Source: Neospora caninum Liverpool (taxonomy: Eukaryota; Apicomplexa; Conoidasida; Eucoccidiorida; Sarcocystidae). From it: 64,000 nucleotides of DNA. The stretch spans positions 2,438,793 through 2,502,792 of the forward strand of contig NC_018392.1 in NCBI RefSeq assembly GCF_000208865.1, in the 5' to 3' direction. Shown here piece after piece: positions 8,740 to 16,613 of this stretch. Within the stretch, counting starts at the first letter, position 1. The number at the start of each line of letters is the position of its first letter. The position numbers and the translations under genes were made by a program. The notes under the pieces are model-generated. The model was not told the origin of the DNA. It did no database searches and worked only from the letters and a program-made list of their open reading frames with translations.

Positions 8740-10293
8740 CTAGAACTCGAGACGCAGGACAGAGGTGTCCACGGCCTTGAACCCGAGTTTGTTCTCATAG
8801 ATGTGTCGAGCCTCAAGTTTTTCGACTGTCAAGTCTAGACGGCCACACAAGTCCCTCTCTCGGACTTCTTGAACGACTGCTTCGCACATTTTTGTCGCCA
8901 AACCTCGGCCTCGGAACCGCTCGCTGACGACGACGCGTTCTAGACGACCGTCTGGTTTCCGGCCCAAGTGCGGCTGTAGAAGGACTTCGCAGTAGCCGAG
9001 AAGATCTCCTTCTCTCTCCCGCTCGTCTCCTCCTTCGCTCTCCGCGTTTTTCACGCTGAAACAGCACCAGGCATAGAAAACGGGAAGACTAAGAATCGAA
9101 GCAACCTGTGCATCTGACAGGGTGGTTGGGCACCGCGAGACGGACGGAAGCAGCACACGCACCGCAGGGTAGTCGGACAGTTCCATCCGACGCAAAATCA
9201 CCTGTTCTCCAGTCTTGCACGTGAGGATCTTTACAAAATCACGTGGCACAGAAGAAAAGTATGGACAAGGAGAGACAGCGTCATCTGCTCCGGCCATCAT
9301 TTCACACATTTTCTCGCGGTAAGACGAAGCTGCCTTTCTCACGGGGTCACCGCTTCTCTCCTCGTCTTTTGGCGTTCTCTCTCTGTGTCTCGCTGTCCCT
9401 AAACGTTCTTCCCTTCCTCTTTCGCCGCCACGCATCATCGCACCTTTCTGGGCCTGGCTTTTCTTGCTCGCGCAGCAAGAGCCGCCAGTTACTGCGCCGC
9501 TCTTCGCGCAGCACGCGCAGTCGCATCCGCATGCACCCGTCTTGTCTCTCGAGACTCGACAGCACTGGCATTCGCACGGGCATGTCTTTGTGCAGCATTT
9601 GCAGCATTGACATTCCGTCTTTTTGCAGCAAGCACAAGAACAGCCACATCGGCCCTGATCTCCGTCGGAGCAGCAGGAGCATTTCTTCTTGTCTTTGCAG
9701 CAGGCGCACGAACACGTGCACGGCGCACAGCACGCACACGGGCAAGCGCATGCGCCCTTGCTTGCTGAGCAGCACATACACTTTTTGCATCCCTTGTCTC
9801 CGGTCTTCGTTTGTCCTTCACCTGTGCGGCAACATCGGCCAGTGGGCGATCTTTCCTTGCAGCAGGTGCAAGTGCATGCGCAGGAGCTGTCGGAACAGCA
9901 CACACACTTGCATTTTCCGCTACTTTTCTGCTCCGCTCCCCCTGCCTCGCCGGACGTGATCGTCACATCCGACGAGACCTTTTCGGGTTCTGAGGAACTT
10001 GGCGCAAACATTGTGCGGCACTCGGTTTCCGTCGATGTCACGGTCTTCCCGTCGTCGCCCTCGATGACCACTCTCTCCTGCGTCACCTTCGTCACTGGTT
10101 CCTCGGACGAAGCCAAAAGTGTGTGTTCGACGATGCGGGTAAAGCTCGCCCTGTCGCTTCCTGGTTGACTGCACTTGCTACTTGTTTGACAGCACCTGCA
10201 CGAACAATCGCATTTCTTGTCCAACGCGCAGCATGCGCCAGTGCGACGGTCCGGTTGCTTGCAGCACGTGCAATTGCACACACACGTTGACAT
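8740..10293 (-). CDS. Cysteine-rich (metallothionein-like) domain fused to GNAT acetyltransferase
   Basis: Intron-less gene of 517 residues. ATG 10293 (MSTCVCNCTCCKQ) was chosen because the cysteine domain starts there; the open frame continues 38 codons further up but that part is not cysteine-rich. Residues 4 to about 280 hold more than 60 cysteines, including about eight copies of CxCxCxCC (CVCNCTCC, CDCSCRCC, CACTCTCC, CACPCACC, CTCSCACC, CGCSCACC, CPCECQCC, CGCDCACC). A cysteine-free acidic and threonine-rich segment separates the first two copies from the rest. A basic linker follows. The last 170 residues are a GNAT domain: RLERVVVSERFRGRGLATKM carries the acetyl-CoA loop RxxGxGLA, and YENKLGFKAV is the usual end of the fold. 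The end resembles the glucosamine-6-phosphate acetyltransferase branch, but the substrate is unknown. Metal binding by the cysteine domain is inferred from composition. Confidence 0.87.
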   Translation of the reverse strand: MSTCVCNCTCCKQPDRRTGACCALDKKCDCSCRCCQTSSKCSQPGSDRASFTRIVEHTLLASSEEPVTKVTQERVVIEGDDGKTVTSTETECRTMFAPSSSEPEKVSSDVTITSGEAGGAEQKSSGKCKCVCCSDSSCACTCTCCKERSPTGRCCRTGEGQTKTGDKGCKKCMCCSASKGACACPCACCAPCTCSCACCKDKKKCSCCSDGDQGRCGCSCACCKKTECQCCKCCTKTCPCECQCCRVSRDKTGACGCDCACCAKSGAVTGGSCCASKKSQAQKGAMMRGGERGREERLGTARHRERTPKDEERSGDPVRKAASSYREKMCEMMAGADDAVSPCPYFSSVPRDFVKILTCKTGEQVILRRMELSDYPAVRVLLPSVSRCPTTLSDAQVASILSLPVFYAWCCFSVKNAESEGGDEREREGDLLGYCEVLLQPHLGRKPDGRLERVVVSERFRGRGLATKMCEAVVQEVRERDLCGRLDLTVEKLEARHIYENKLGFKAVDTSVLRLEF

Positions 10294-12860
10294 GGCGGTC
10301 CAGAAAAGCAAATGGCAGAGAAAGGTTTCCTGCAACAGACGATAAAAGTGCACCGCCTCAGAAGTAGCAAAGATGAAGCGTCGCGCAAAACACGGCTGAG
10401 GGTACACGGCCTCGTGGTCCTTCAGAGATTAGCCTGCTAGAGATGGACGGTGAATCGACACACAGGCCGGTCAACCAGCTGCGCCGGCGCGTCAAAAGTG
10501 AAAGAATTACCCCCGAGGGGAAAGAATTATCCGCTTGAAAGAATTGTATGTGTGGTGCCCGAAACTATACCAGCGAAATCGCCTTACTTGACAAAGACGT
10601 TCACGCATATACTGCTCGAATCCGCGCCTCTTCACGGCCAGCAAGAGCTATTTCGTGGACGAGGGCAAGACTAGCCAGTGTGACCAAAGCAGCACGAACA
10701 CACCCGCGGTCTGGTTTCTCCGTCTCCGCAACAAAACGAACCGAGCAAAATCCGGTGCACTCCGTGGATGAGTTGGCAGACCAACAGAAAATGCTTCCTA
10801 CGCCAAAAAACAAAAAGAGTGGAGAACTGCGTTGTTTTTAAAATGCTTCGTGACTCCCCAGGCAAGCGCGCGGGATGCCCGCCGTAGCGCCGCACCTCAC
10901 TCCGGTAGTCGCCGGTAGAAAGCTTGTCCGTTACGCGGGGTGGGGGGAGGCGAGCGTTTGCATTTAGTAAGAGCATCGTAAATCCGGTTTTTTGCTGTCT
11001 GTTGGTTACGAGTAGGAGCACTGCAACTGACACGGGAGGCAGAGAACTGTTGGTTCGTTTTTTCCCTGCCGCACTTGCTAAGAACCCCGTAGCGAGGAAC
11101 GTAGTACGCGATAGCCCGGTAGCATATAGCAACATGACTCTATGTTTTCAGACGGCTCTGGCCATGCCCCTGGCACGTCATTTGGGATGTATGTTTCTAG
11201 ACTTTTGATAAAGAAGCACGCCTCATTTTTTGTCACTGGCCAAAAAGTGGCGGTAACCTGAATCGTATAGTTTGCTGTCGCGGTGCACACGGCAGATATA
11301 GGTAGAGGTGTCGGATGCGTTTCCCCGCGAGGTCTCGCCGCTTGTCGGCACGAATGGAGAGAAGTTGCCATAGAAACAAACCATCTTTTCGGTAAGCGAT
11401 CCCTTGTTCCTTTGTTGGTGTCGACACACGCAAGTCCGGAAAACCGGGTTTCTTTCCCGCGGTCAGGAGTATGTACTCTCCTGGGAGGCCGTGCGAGCGT
11501 GCAAGGCTCAGGGATGCGGAGATCTACTGGCTACGTTTTTCCCCATTCGCTTCTTTTCTGAATTCGGGACGGGGCTGGGATAAATCAATAAGAGCCATGG
11601 AAGCTCATGTAGTTCACTGGTCGTGCCCGTTGAGCACGCACGCAGATGGCTTCTTCGTGGACCGCCCTCAGACGGCGCCGTGTCCCTTAGACGGGGACGG
11701 GACGACTAGAACACCACTCACCTATTTCAGCTTGCTTCCTGGAATAGCCGCACAGAAATGCCGTACATGTCCACTGCTTTCGGTTTGCAGTATCCCAACA
11801 CCAGAGAATCTCTAGCTTTTTGCACCCCGTGTCCACAGTGGTTATCCACAAGCGATCTTTAAAGGCACGCGCCGCTAATGACTCGTCGCCCGTCCGCACA
11901 ACAACCCTGGGCAACGTCACGCGTTCCCCCTCCTCAACGGTTTTTCTGCTCGACGCCTCGTGGGCAACCCACGCATGACTTACCCGGTGAGGACGCCCTG
12001 GTTTTTTATAAAGCGACCTCTCTCTCGCTGCTTCGCTCCACTAAACTCCCACGGTGAGGAGCCACTGGCGGAGAGCGCCTCTCTGTTCCCTTCGCGGCGC
12101 TGTTTGTACCAGATGCAACAGAATCCGGAAGCCCCGCCGCGCATGCGCTGAATGCGGCGACGTAAGTGACCTCGCGGTGACAGTCCTCGACGCGGGGAAA
12201 CAGGGCGTCTACGTTGTCGTCTGAGAGTCAGAGGTTTAGAATTTCGGTGAAATGAGAAAATCCGGGATTGTGGTTTCCCTGTGTGCATCGTCCCTGGCGG
12301 GTAGCGCGCTGGGATCTCGCAGGACGCGTGGCACGTGCTGTGCTCCCCCCCCTCTTGTCCGAGGGTTAGGGCCATCGAGACGGCTCCCACAGCCCCAGCT
12401 CCATCTCCCTCGAGCTTTTACAGCTCGCTTCTTTTCGTTGTAAATTCCTGATGAGGCCGTTCTCGGGGGGACACTACGAGCGCTCCGGCTCCGTACTACG
12501 TGCGGCGAGTGCGCGTCCGTGGACGATCGTTTTCCGTTGGGAGGGCCGCAGGGGTTTTCAGGCATGATTGCTTCGCCCTAGGACGTACAACTCTGCTCTC
12601 TGCTCTCTCCTTCCGTCTTTGCGTTTCCCTCGTGGGTTCTCCGTTTCGGCTCCTTTTCTCGGCGCTCCAGACTGCTTCTTCGCGCCCTGCAATTGCACCG
12701 TGTTTGCGCCCTGCCCCGGACGTGGGTGCGGGCTCCACGTCCGTGTCTTCATATCCAGGCGCCGAACCTCCGACCCTTGCTGCTTCGAGCCCTCACTCCG
12801 CGGAACTTCGTTTCCCTTCTCCAGCCTCCTCTTTCTCTCCCGTCGGTCCGCCTCGTCACG
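10294..12860. other. Intergenic region between divergent genes
   Basis: It separates the start of the cysteine-rich GNAT gene (minus) from the start of the DNMT2-type gene (plus), so it should hold both promoters. Short open frames occur on both strands, but none shows a recognisable domain. The frame that leads into DNMT2 stays open from 12693; I treat 12693-12860 as 5' untranslated sequence. Confidence 0.5.
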
Positions 12861-15800
12861 ATGACGCTAAAAGCTCTCATCCTCTACAGCGGCATAGGGG
12901 GCATGCACTGCGGCCTCTTCCACGCCCGCCTCCTTCGGCGCCTGCGCATGCGCGGCGTCTCGCCGTTCCCGCCTCGATCCTCTGAAGAGCACGAACAGGA
13001 GACGAATCGCGATGCGAGCGCACACGGCGAGAGCGCCGCAAGGCAGCGCACGGATCCCGTCCCGGCGACAGATCGAGAGGTTACGAGGCATGAAACCCAG
13101 GAGGAACTGGAGAGCAAGCACAGCGTGGAGGGGAAGGCTGGCGGCAGCGCCGCATGCGAAGAGACGAAGGCCAAAGCCGGAGAGATGACACAGGATGAGC
13201 AAGATGAAGCGGATCTCATCGAGGCGCTAAAAGGGATTTCCCGCGATGGCGATAACGTCTGTATTCACCCAATAGTCAGCGAGTACATTCGCCTCCCGCC
13301 ACCGGGTCCTGAGGCGACTCCGTCTTCCTGCACGGCCCGCCCAAACACCCTGATTTTGTCTGAGAGAAAGAATCCGAACAGACGGCGTGCGCAGAATGCG
13401 GCAAGCGCGCAGGGAGAAGAACCCGAGAAAGAACAGGACGAGAAAGAACAGGACGAGAAAGAACAGGACGAGGAAGAACAGGACGAGAGAGAACAGGTCA
13501 AGAAAGACTCGGACGGCGTGTTTTCCGAAGAGCGGCAGGTGAACCCTTCTGAGTGCGCGGCAGGAGGGAAGCAAGACGGCAGTCCCGTCGAAGAAACGAC
13601 GACTACCGCTACAGTGACCCAGTCGCCTGGAGAGAGGGGAGAGAGTTCAGATTCCCCGTTGCTTTCGGATCGAAGACCGCTGTCCCCGAAGGCGCGAACG
13701 CTCCGTGGGCGTCCCGAGGAGAACACTGCGACAGCGCATGCGGTATCTCCTTCCCCAGTTAAGCGTGTCGCTTGTCTCGGCGCGTCAAAGTCGCCTTCCT
13801 CTGGGGGCAGTTCAGGAACGGATCCCAAGATGGATGTGGGACGCGCTGACAACGCAGTTCCTGGGTTGTTTTCGCCCAGCAGTCTGCCGCGCCCACGGGA
13901 ACTCTCGGGTCCCCCTTCCGCGTCTTGCGCTTCTCCGTTTCGCGCCCTTCCCTTCGAAGTGGTGGGAGTGATCGACGTGAATCCCACTGCGATGGATGTC
14001 TACCGTCGAAACTTGCTGCCTCCGTCGGCGGAATCGCCGAGTGCCTCGCGCCGTCAGCCTTCTCAGACTCTGCAGTCTCCGGGAGTCCCGTTGACGTCGA
14101 CAAAGTCTATCGACTCGTATCCGGCGTCGTTCTACGGGGCCTTCGAGGCGGATCTCTGGCTGGTGTCTCCGCCGTGTCAGCCGTTCACGCGGATCGGGCT
14201 GCAAAAGGGAAACGCTGACCGTCGGAACGCGTCCTTTCTGTATCTCTTGGACGTCCTATGTCAGCTGCCGCATGCGCAGAGACCCAAGTACCTGCTGCTC
14301 GAGAATGTCGTCCGCTTCGAGGTCAGCGACACGTTCGACTGTCTCCTGCATGCACTCGAGTGCGTGTGCGGCTACCAGGTGGACGTCTTCCATCTGAATC
14401 CTCTGCACTTTGGCATCCCGAACTGCCGGTCGCGGTGCTTCGTCACGGCGAAGAAATCCGCCGCGGCACCTAAGCTCAGCAACTCGGGCGGTCTCCTGCG
14501 CTCCGCGCTCGCCTGGTTCCGGTGGGAAGGAAGCCGCGATGCAAGGAAAAGCGACAGACGTCTGCAGACGCTTCCAGAGGGGAAGGGAGGCAAGGCAGCA
14601 GAGGAAACGCAAGAGCGTGGAACGTCCAAGGGCGGTAAAGGCGGCGACGAGTCTGCTACCGCGGGACAGAAACGAAGAAACGCGTGGTCATTCTTGCTGC
14701 CCCAGAGGCGGCGGGGAGAGACAGGACGCGCGAAAGAACAGGGCAACACGAACGGCGAAGGAGAAGGCTCCACCGAAACGGGGCCCCGTCCTGCCGAGGA
14801 AGAGGACTGCGCTCCCGTAGGGGGACCGAAAGGGGAACGTGCAACATCCGGAGAGACCCGTGGAGATCAGACCGCTGGCTCTCAACGTTCGTCCAGCGCG
14901 AGCGACACCCGGCAGAGACGCGAGAAGGAGACTCGGGGTCAGGGAAGCCCCGGGGAGAAGGCGAGTCCGGACAAGGGGCGAGGGGAGAAGAACTCCAACA
15001 AGGACGTCCCGACCACTGGGCCGAGCTGTTTGGATTGCTGGACCTGTGCAAAGTGCGTGCGCAGACGCAGAAGACAGGACGCGGGAAAGCAGGAGCGAGT
15101 GGTGCTGACCCACATTCCGGGCGTGTACGCGTCCCCGGCTTTCTTCTGCTGTCCAATTCGGCCTCTGGAAGACTTCCTGGACGCGAAGTTCCCGCCAAAG
15201 GCGCCGTTTGTGCCGGCGGAGAAACCCGGAACCTCGTACCGATTCGTCGACGAGGCGCTTCAGGAGCGGAGCACTCCGCAGCGGAACGCGCAGGCGCCTG
15301 TGCGGGCCGGCAGCCGCAGAGTGAGTGGCCGAGGCGAGGAGGTGGAATCCAACTGCGAAGAGCAGTGGGAAGATATTTCGCTCGCCCACGGCCCGAGTTT
15401 AACGAGCGAGTTGTGTGCAGTCGACGCCGTCCGGCGGAGCAGCCTCCCCACTCCGGGTCCGGTCTATACTGCTGGCGGCGTGTTTGTCCCCGCCGACGTG
15501 CAGGGGCCTTGGCGGAGACAGACTGCCGCACTGGTTCTGTCTCAGCAGCAGAAAGACCGCATTTGGTTCAACGTGGACCTCGTCCGTCGCGGCGAAAAAC
15601 GAAGCAGCTGCTTCACGCGGTCCTACGGCCGAACTGGCCACGCCCAGTACGGCAGCCTGTTAGTCCTCGATGAAGACCTCGCGCTCGAACAGCGGTGGGC
15701 GGCGTTTGCTCAGCAAAAGGTGGCAGCGGAGAGACTTCAGGAGGCTCGAGGTGACGACGAAGAGCACGGGGATGGCATCCGCGAGGGCGAGCCTGCTGGG

Positions 15801-16613
15801 AAGCTCGAGGCCCACAGGGCGGGGAAGTGCGACACGAAAACGGAGGTGAGGAGCGGAAAGACGCGGAAGGACAGGGAGGCCCTTTCCAACAAAGAGGGTT
15901 CTCAGGGCGCAGAGGCCGGGAACGCTTCTCGACCTCGAGGGGAGATGTCTCGGGACAGCCTGAGGACGGGAGAGGAGAACGGAGAGCCGTCGTGTGGCGG
16001 GCCGGAGCCTCGCCAGGTGGAGGTAGGAGACGCCGCTGAGACGCAGGACGGGAAGCGCGGGAAGACGAAGGCGGGGAAGGAGGACTCTGCAGAGGGGCGT
16101 GGACAGGCGACGGAGAGCCAGGAGGCCTCACGCGAGGCAGGCGAGTCCGAGCGGAGGGAGCGAGAAGGAAAGAAAGGCCGAGGGAAGAAAGCGGAGGGAA
16201 CTGCATGTGAGGGAGCAGGGGAGAGGCCAGTCGTTCCAAGAGCCGCAGGGAGGCGCGCGAGGGACGCGTCCGAGTGCAAACGCAGGGGGAAGTTCGCGTG
16301 GCTTTTTCCGAGGCAGTTCTTCTCCCTGCGCTTTTTCGTCGCGCAGTCCTTTTCGGCCACTGTCCTTCCCGCAAAGAAAAAAGGCAACAAGGGCTGGGAG
16401 CTCCACGACATCCTCCCGCCCGAGACCGCCGTGCGCTTCTTCAGCCCCCAGGAAATTCTCGCGCTCCACGGCTTTCCTCCCTCCTTTGCTTTCCCCGATG
16501 CCGACGAGCCTCGCGCGTGGCCTTCCCAGCGAAGAATGGTGGGCAACAGCTTAAACGTGCACCTTGTTGGCATGCTGATAGACTTTCTCGTGGACGACGA
16601 GGACTGGAACTGA
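12861..16613 (+). CDS. DNMT2/TRDMT1-type tRNA (cytosine-5) methyltransferase with giant inserts
   Basis: Single exon, 1,250 residues, against about 390 in human DNMT2. Start ATG 12861 gives MTLKALILYSGIGGMHCG, the AdoMet-binding motif I at the extreme N-terminus as in DNMT2. Further motifs: VVGVIDVNPTAMDVYRRNL; SPPCQPFTRIGLQKG near residue 436, with the catalytic cysteine; LLLENVVRFE near 483; FGIPNCRSRCF near 520; the DNMT2 signature CFT near 915 (SCFTRSYG); FFSPQEILALHGFP and QRRMVGNSLNVHLVG at the C-terminus. All catalytic residues I can check are present, so it is likely active. The family methylates C38 of tRNA-Asp; DNA activity is usually weak. Three hydrophilic inserts, of about 350, 360 and 260 residues, separate the motifs and are rich in E, K, R, G and S. 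They probably form disordered loops. Confidence 0.93.
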   Translation: MTLKALILYSGIGGMHCGLFHARLLRRLRMRGVSPFPPRSSEEHEQETNRDASAHGESAARQRTDPVPATDREVTRHETQEELESKHSVEGKAGGSAACEETKAKAGEMTQDEQDEADLIEALKGISRDGDNVCIHPIVSEYIRLPPPGPEATPSSCTARPNTLILSERKNPNRRRAQNAASAQGEEPEKEQDEKEQDEKEQDEEEQDEREQVKKDSDGVFSEERQVNPSECAAGGKQDGSPVEETTTTATVTQSPGERGESSDSPLLSDRRPLSPKARTLRGRPEENTATAHAVSPSPVKRVACLGASKSPSSGGSSGTDPKMDVGRADNAVPGLFSPSSLPRPRELSGPPSASCASPFRALPFEVVGVIDVNPTAMDVYRRNLLPPSAESPSASRRQPSQTLQSPGVPLTSTKSIDSYPASFYGAFEADLWLVSPPCQPFTRIGLQKGNADRRNASFLYLLDVLCQLPHAQRPKYLLLENVVRFEVSDTFDCLLHALECVCGYQVDVFHLNPLHFGIPNCRSRCFVTAKKSAAAPKLSNSGGLLRSALAWFRWEGSRDARKSDRRLQTLPEGKGGKAAEETQERGTSKGGKGGDESATAGQKRRNAWSFLLPQRRRGETGRAKEQGNTNGEGEGSTETGPRPAEEEDCAPVGGPKGERATSGETRGDQTAGSQRSSSASDTRQRREKETRGQGSPGEKASPDKGRGEKNSNKDVPTTGPSCLDCWTCAKCVRRRRRQDAGKQERVVLTHIPGVYASPAFFCCPIRPLEDFLDAKFPPKAPFVPAEKPGTSYRFVDEALQERSTPQRNAQAPVRAGSRRVSGRGEEVESNCEEQWEDISLAHGPSLTSELCAVDAVRRSSLPTPGPVYTAGGVFVPADVQGPWRRQTAALVLSQQQKDRIWFNVDLVRRGEKRSSCFTRSYGRTGHAQYGSLLVLDEDLALEQRWAAFAQQKVAAERLQEARGDDEEHGDGIREGEPAGKLEAHRAGKCDTKTEVRSGKTRKDREALSNKEGSQGAEAGNASRPRGEMSRDSLRTGEENGEPSCGGPEPRQVEVGDAAETQDGKRGKTKAGKEDSAEGRGQATESQEASREAGESERREREGKKGRGKKAEGTACEGAGERPVVPRAAGRRARDASECKRRGKFAWLFPRQFFSLRFFVAQSFSATVLPAKKKGNKGWELHDILPPETAVRFFSPQEILALHGFPPSFAFPDADEPRAWPSQRRMVGNSLNVHLVGMLIDFLVDDEDWN
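13425..13499 (+). repeat. 15-bp tandem repeat, five units, coding for EKEQD
   Basis: Five in-frame 15-base units (gagaaagaacaggac with small changes in the last two) in the first insert of the DNMT2-type gene. They encode an acidic/basic EKEQD-like repeat that should be helical or disordered. Confidence 0.93.

Follow-up and report, generated by a model that had tools for sequence, protein, structure and literature searches.

Apicomplexan GNA1 was previously identified as a family, along with its activity (PMC5838249, in the part available), and two of its members are the closest described systems for the locus considered here. The first is the enzyme from Cryptosporidium parvum (CpGNA1, PDB code: 6yug), a chain of 152 residues that is active without any arm and whose activity is nearly abolished by mutating R73, R113, R141, or Y127. 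The second is GNA1 from Toxoplasma gondii (TGGT1_243600), for which acetylation of glucosamine-6-phosphate has been reported, being an enzyme needed for growth and a proposed drug target. The available sections of PMC11218972 give this protein a predicted mass of 55.5 kDa and state that its extended N-terminus is of unknown function. Here, a GNA1-type gene of Neospora caninum Liverpool is described, in which the GNAT domain is preceded by a long cysteine-rich arm. The gene lies in a window of 64,000 nucleotides, this being the whole stretch of DNA that was analysed (contig NC_018392.1, positions 2,438,793 to 2,502,792).

The cysteine arm and its conservation

The preliminary description of this DNA had proposed a cysteine-rich domain fused to an acetyltransferase in a single frame, and this frame is indeed open over 517 codons, starting at its first in-frame ATG with an in-frame stop 138 nt upstream. 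Its parts are as follows.

8740..10293, minus strand: whole frame, cysteine arm plus GNA1-type GNAT; 517 codons and a stop, with full-length relatives in Hammondia and Besnoitia
10159..10293, minus strand: cysteine block 1, residues 1-45; 13 Cys, CxCxCxCC modules at residues 4 and 28
9919..10158, minus strand: spacer, residues 46-125; conserved, with a single Cys and three predicted strands
9442..9918, minus strand: cysteine block 2 (main array), residues 126-284; 50 Cys, modules at 138, 182, 192, 216, 238, and 255
9232..9441, minus strand: linker, residues 285-354; weakly conserved
8743..9231, minus strand: GNA1-type GNAT domain, residues 355-517

It is fairly probable, in our judgement, that the arm serves this 517-residue protein as an inbuilt metallothionein for zinc or copper, acting as a buffer and not as a switch of the enzyme. 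The composition of the arm agrees with the earlier count of more than 60 cysteines in about 280 residues, since 64 of the 73 cysteines of the protein fall within residues 1-284, together with eight exact copies of the repeat that had been noted (CxCxCxCC), 30 CxC, and 16 CC pairs. The two blocks alone hold 63 Cys in 204 residues (31%), with no aromatic residue and no His. When these blocks were shuffled 5000 times, a mean of 0.16 and a maximum of 3 modules were obtained.

In metallothioneins, Cys makes up about 30% of the residues, CxC and CC are frequent, aromatic residues are absent, and His is nearly so. The arm is alike in all these respects; however, metallothioneins are small free-standing proteins, whereas here the array belongs to a 517-residue GNAT fusion. 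Taking the metal ratios of metallothioneins as a guide, the arm could hold on the order of twenty zinc ions.

The same fusion was found among coccidian proteins in two further genera, in a protein from Hammondia (P0002, GNAT family protein, with an NCBI name marked UNVERIFIED_CONTAM; 67% identity in the search and 71% in the alignment) and in another from Besnoitia (P0003, GNAT family protein; 55% and 56%, respectively). Both are alike to the window protein in architecture and length, so the frame is neither a chance open frame nor a fusion made by the assembly. Each of the three proteins carries eight CxCxCxCC modules and 30 CxC, with 64, 65, and 66 Cys in the first 284 residues for the window, Hammondia, and Besnoitia proteins, respectively; the latter two have no aromatic residue and one His each in the blocks. 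In contrast, the non-cysteine residues of the arm have widely diverged. In block 2, the columns invariant in the three genera comprise 48 of 50 Cys versus 25 of 109 other residues, and in block 1, 10 of 13 versus 3 of 32; as a rough estimate, BLOSUM45/62 would predict a Cys retention of 40-57%. Among non-cysteine positions, 10 of 68 are invariant in the linker and 103 of 156 in the GNAT domain. As far as the sequences go, the cysteines of the arm are conserved as such, far above the neighbouring residues. The metallothionein-like array joined to an intact GNAT domain thus holds in three coccidian genera.

The spacer is the best conserved non-cysteine part of the arm (33 of 79 positions invariant), with three strands (model confidence low to moderate) predicted over residues 51-95. 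No Pfam family was found for the spacer, and residues 46-115 have no second copy in the genome. This segment may be a small folded element.

At the DNA level, the variable codons within the modules are only 34% identical, which is near chance, and young DNA repeats were discarded on this basis. A degenerate codon pattern for CxCxCxCC, scanned over the 57.5 Mb of the genome (14 contigs), gave 67 matches against 58 for a reversed control, so single matches are noise; nonetheless, eight of the 67 fall inside 777 bp of the GNA1 gene. The other sites with several matches are C4:1920898-1921101 (3), C14:1737246-1737284 (5, overlapping), and C14:3216302-3216331 (2, overlapping). Separately, a 93-aa open reading frame (L027:1387-1668, plus strand; G000:C7 near 919435) is very rich in Cys and His, with 25 Cys in 60 residues and a hydrophobic end, being possibly a small membrane-anchored metal-binding protein.

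The enzyme and its relatives

As the preliminary description had anticipated, the C-terminal part matches PF00583 (residues 425-505, 6e-12). The closest solved structure is that of CpGNA1 (8e-21, the next match being at 0.0098), which also heads the rankings of Foldseek and VIA-align 2. The four residues critical for the activity of CpGNA1 (R73, R113, R141, and Y127) correspond to R445, R485, R514, and Y499 in the window protein and are kept in all nine aligned proteins. Of the other ligand-contact or mutated positions of CpGNA1, 19 were mapped by hand, and 11 of these are identical while eight differ. Judged by the structure matches and the four critical residues, the domain is an apicomplexan GNA1, predicted to acetylate glucosamine-6-phosphate, and in the genome it is single copy, with one match. 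The claim that no described GNAT has this architecture does not stand for the enzyme part, which resembles CpGNA1 and T. gondii GNA1 in the GNAT domain and the activity-critical residues; moreover, the T. gondii ortholog is published, its N-terminus included, and the difference with CpGNA1 lies in the short chain of the latter.

Besides its enzyme domain, the T. gondii gene shares with the window gene a nearly equal predicted mass, a similar series of in-frame starts, and a DNA methylase neighbour, which in the window is the following.

12693..16613, plus strand: C-5 DNA methylase open reading frame (PF00145, 4.5e-21), 2.4 kb from the GNA1 frame

In T. gondii, DNMTb is TGME49_243610, a number adjoining the 243600 of GNA1. 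The adjacency of both genes is drawn from these numbers, under our assumption that gene numbers correspond between strains and that neighbouring numbers are neighbouring genes. The large methylase frame in the window is DNMTb-like, and long charged insertions split its conserved motifs.

One search for relatives scored only the 7992 candidates sharing most words. Another, limited to proteins of 284-905 aa, gave four matches (three with the arm, and P0004 without it), and one limited to short proteins gave seven. These length limits account in part for the division of the relatives into long and short ones. Nine of the eleven proteins were aligned, leaving out P0004 and P0011, which has the same end as P0010. 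The arm was not found in the six short relatives P0005-P0010 (143-204 aa), nor in P0004 and P0011. P0005, for example, is 60% identical and comes from a 3921-base contig, with no arm within its 204 aa. P0004 (transcriptome GHVS01058390, 373 aa) contains two GNA1-type GNAT domains in tandem. With these arm-less relatives, the arm looks like a gain within cyst-forming coccidia, on a thin sampling shaped by the length limits of the searches.

Isoforms and the arm

According to the available sections of PMC11218972, T. gondii has two GNA1 transcripts, the shorter being more prevalent and spanning only part of the coding sequence, and in-frame starts that would give forms of 45.5, 21.0, 17.2, and 16.7 kDa. 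In-frame Met codons in the window gene give 55.7, 45.5, 21.3, and 16.7 kDa, and in Hammondia 55.3, 45.4, 21.0, and 16.7 kDa. Because the series of masses and starts of both genes agree with that of T. gondii, the N-terminal extension of T. gondii GNA1 is very likely this same arm, the T. gondii cysteines being deduced from its relatives. The candidate internal starts of the window gene are the following.

10009..10011, minus strand: Met95, 45.5 kDa, would keep block 2; common to Hammondia, not Besnoitia
9307..9309, minus strand: Met329, 21.3 kDa, no arm; conserved in 3 of 3
9184..9186, minus strand: Met370, 16.7 kDa, no arm; conserved in 3 of 3

The conserved Met329 and Met370 would make an arm-less enzyme possible, as proposed for T. 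gondii. The earlier view that an intron-less gene leaves no doubt about splicing is therefore too strong, considering the two T. gondii transcripts and the internal in-frame starts. Finding two transcripts had been regarded as grounds to reject the fusion, and in T. gondii they do exist; yet tagged bands of ~30-80 kDa, for which the authors of PMC11218972 did not exclude degradation, suggest that the full-length protein is also made.

In the same sections, four guides specific to the longest isoform average a fitness of +1.02, whereas three guides near the C-terminus average -7.50. Together with the prevalence of the shorter transcript and the absence of the arm in P0005-P0010, these values could mean that the arm is a little-used extension, mostly untranslated or neutral, upstream of the real enzyme. 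This is very improbable, because a conservation at the protein level that is specific to cysteine across three genera requires that the arm be translated and under selection, and the T. gondii bands reach ~80 kDa. Moreover, the 45.5 kDa form would survive the guides for the longest isoform, and judging from the position of Met95/96 it keeps block 2, so these guides do not show the main array to be dispensable.

Role of the arm

The preliminary description had suggested a metal or redox switch, where loading or oxidation of the arm alters GNA1 activity and couples metal or oxidative state to the supply of UDP-GlcNAc. In its favour, the thiol array and the enzyme share one chain, and the GNAT domain itself has six Cys (residues 361-517), six of the seven in residues 355-517 being invariant in the three genera. 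Nonetheless, CpGNA1 works without the arm, the linker is weakly conserved and mostly of low model confidence, and the longest-isoform guides cost no fitness, though the 45.5 kDa form remains. A switch is thus unlikely, and the activity of CpGNA1 along with the weak conservation of the linker favours a passenger buffer.

In the available text of PMC11218972, the tag on T. gondii GNA1 shows up as puncta in the cytosol, which together with the frequent CC pairs would fit an arm for localization or scaffolding, with palmitoylated or cross-linked CC clusters anchoring the long isoform to membranes or within assemblies. However, the tag reports all isoforms and not the long one alone, and sixty-odd Cys in strictly alternating CxCxCxCC, without aromatic residues or His, are more than lipid anchoring needs. 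This role is also rather improbable.

In the metallothionein reading, the arm would wrap around metal-thiolate clusters, and the enzyme would thereby carry a buffer for metal; the arm would not turn catalysis on and off. Considering the T. gondii ortholog and the conserved in-frame starts, the choice of transcript and start codon would provide arm-less enzyme for the housekeeping supply of UDP-GlcNAc, and the long form with its metal store would be of benefit only in some conditions or stages.

Several observations weigh against this reading. When the arm was searched in four pieces, no Pfam family was matched at E <= 10, within the limits set by filters and low complexity; the metallothionein profile that the preliminary description had suggested looking for was thus not recovered, nor was any metallothionein structure matched to the arm. 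Palmitoylation or disulfide scaffolding would need cysteines too. Regarding the enzyme, eight of the 19 mapped CpGNA1 positions differ, H81 (Arg), I84, N90 (Gly), G94, R95 (Thr), I122 (Glu), K125, and L126, and the other eight aligned proteins also depart from CpGNA1 there. As for the isoforms, the window gene has no in-frame Met matching the 17.2 kDa form of T. gondii, and it has further Met forms of 37.6, 26.3, 26.1, 20.9, 20.8, and 5.7 kDa.

On the whole, the preliminary description is borne out in part: the array is real and conserved, and the enzyme side is more ordinary than it supposed. Among the papers listed by searches of an open-access library, the cysteine nature of the recorded and unexplained N-terminal extension is not described, and the repeat spelled CxCxCxCC was not found. 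In the available text of PMC11218972, neither the stems cystein, thiol, zinc, palmitoyl, and disulfide nor metallothionein occur; also, a review of metal storage in this parasite group, in the part available, has "metallothionein" only in its reference list (further sources, in part: PMC7587441, PMC7612242, and PMC12362873).

A cysteine array may then explain the extension of T. gondii GNA1, and this view of the long N-terminus of a proposed drug target yields a specific hypothesis that can be tested at little cost. If true, it would provide a candidate metallothionein in this parasite group, and an unusual instance of a core metabolic enzyme joined to a metallothionein-like module. More tentatively, and with doubt prevailing, cyst-forming coccidia could possess an unrecognized metallothionein attached in cis to an essential enzyme of sugar metabolism, where the choice of isoform would set the share of GNA1 carrying a metal store of sixty-odd thiols, tying zinc or copper handling to the supply of UDP-GlcNAc and, through it, to GPI anchors and the glycans of the cyst wall.
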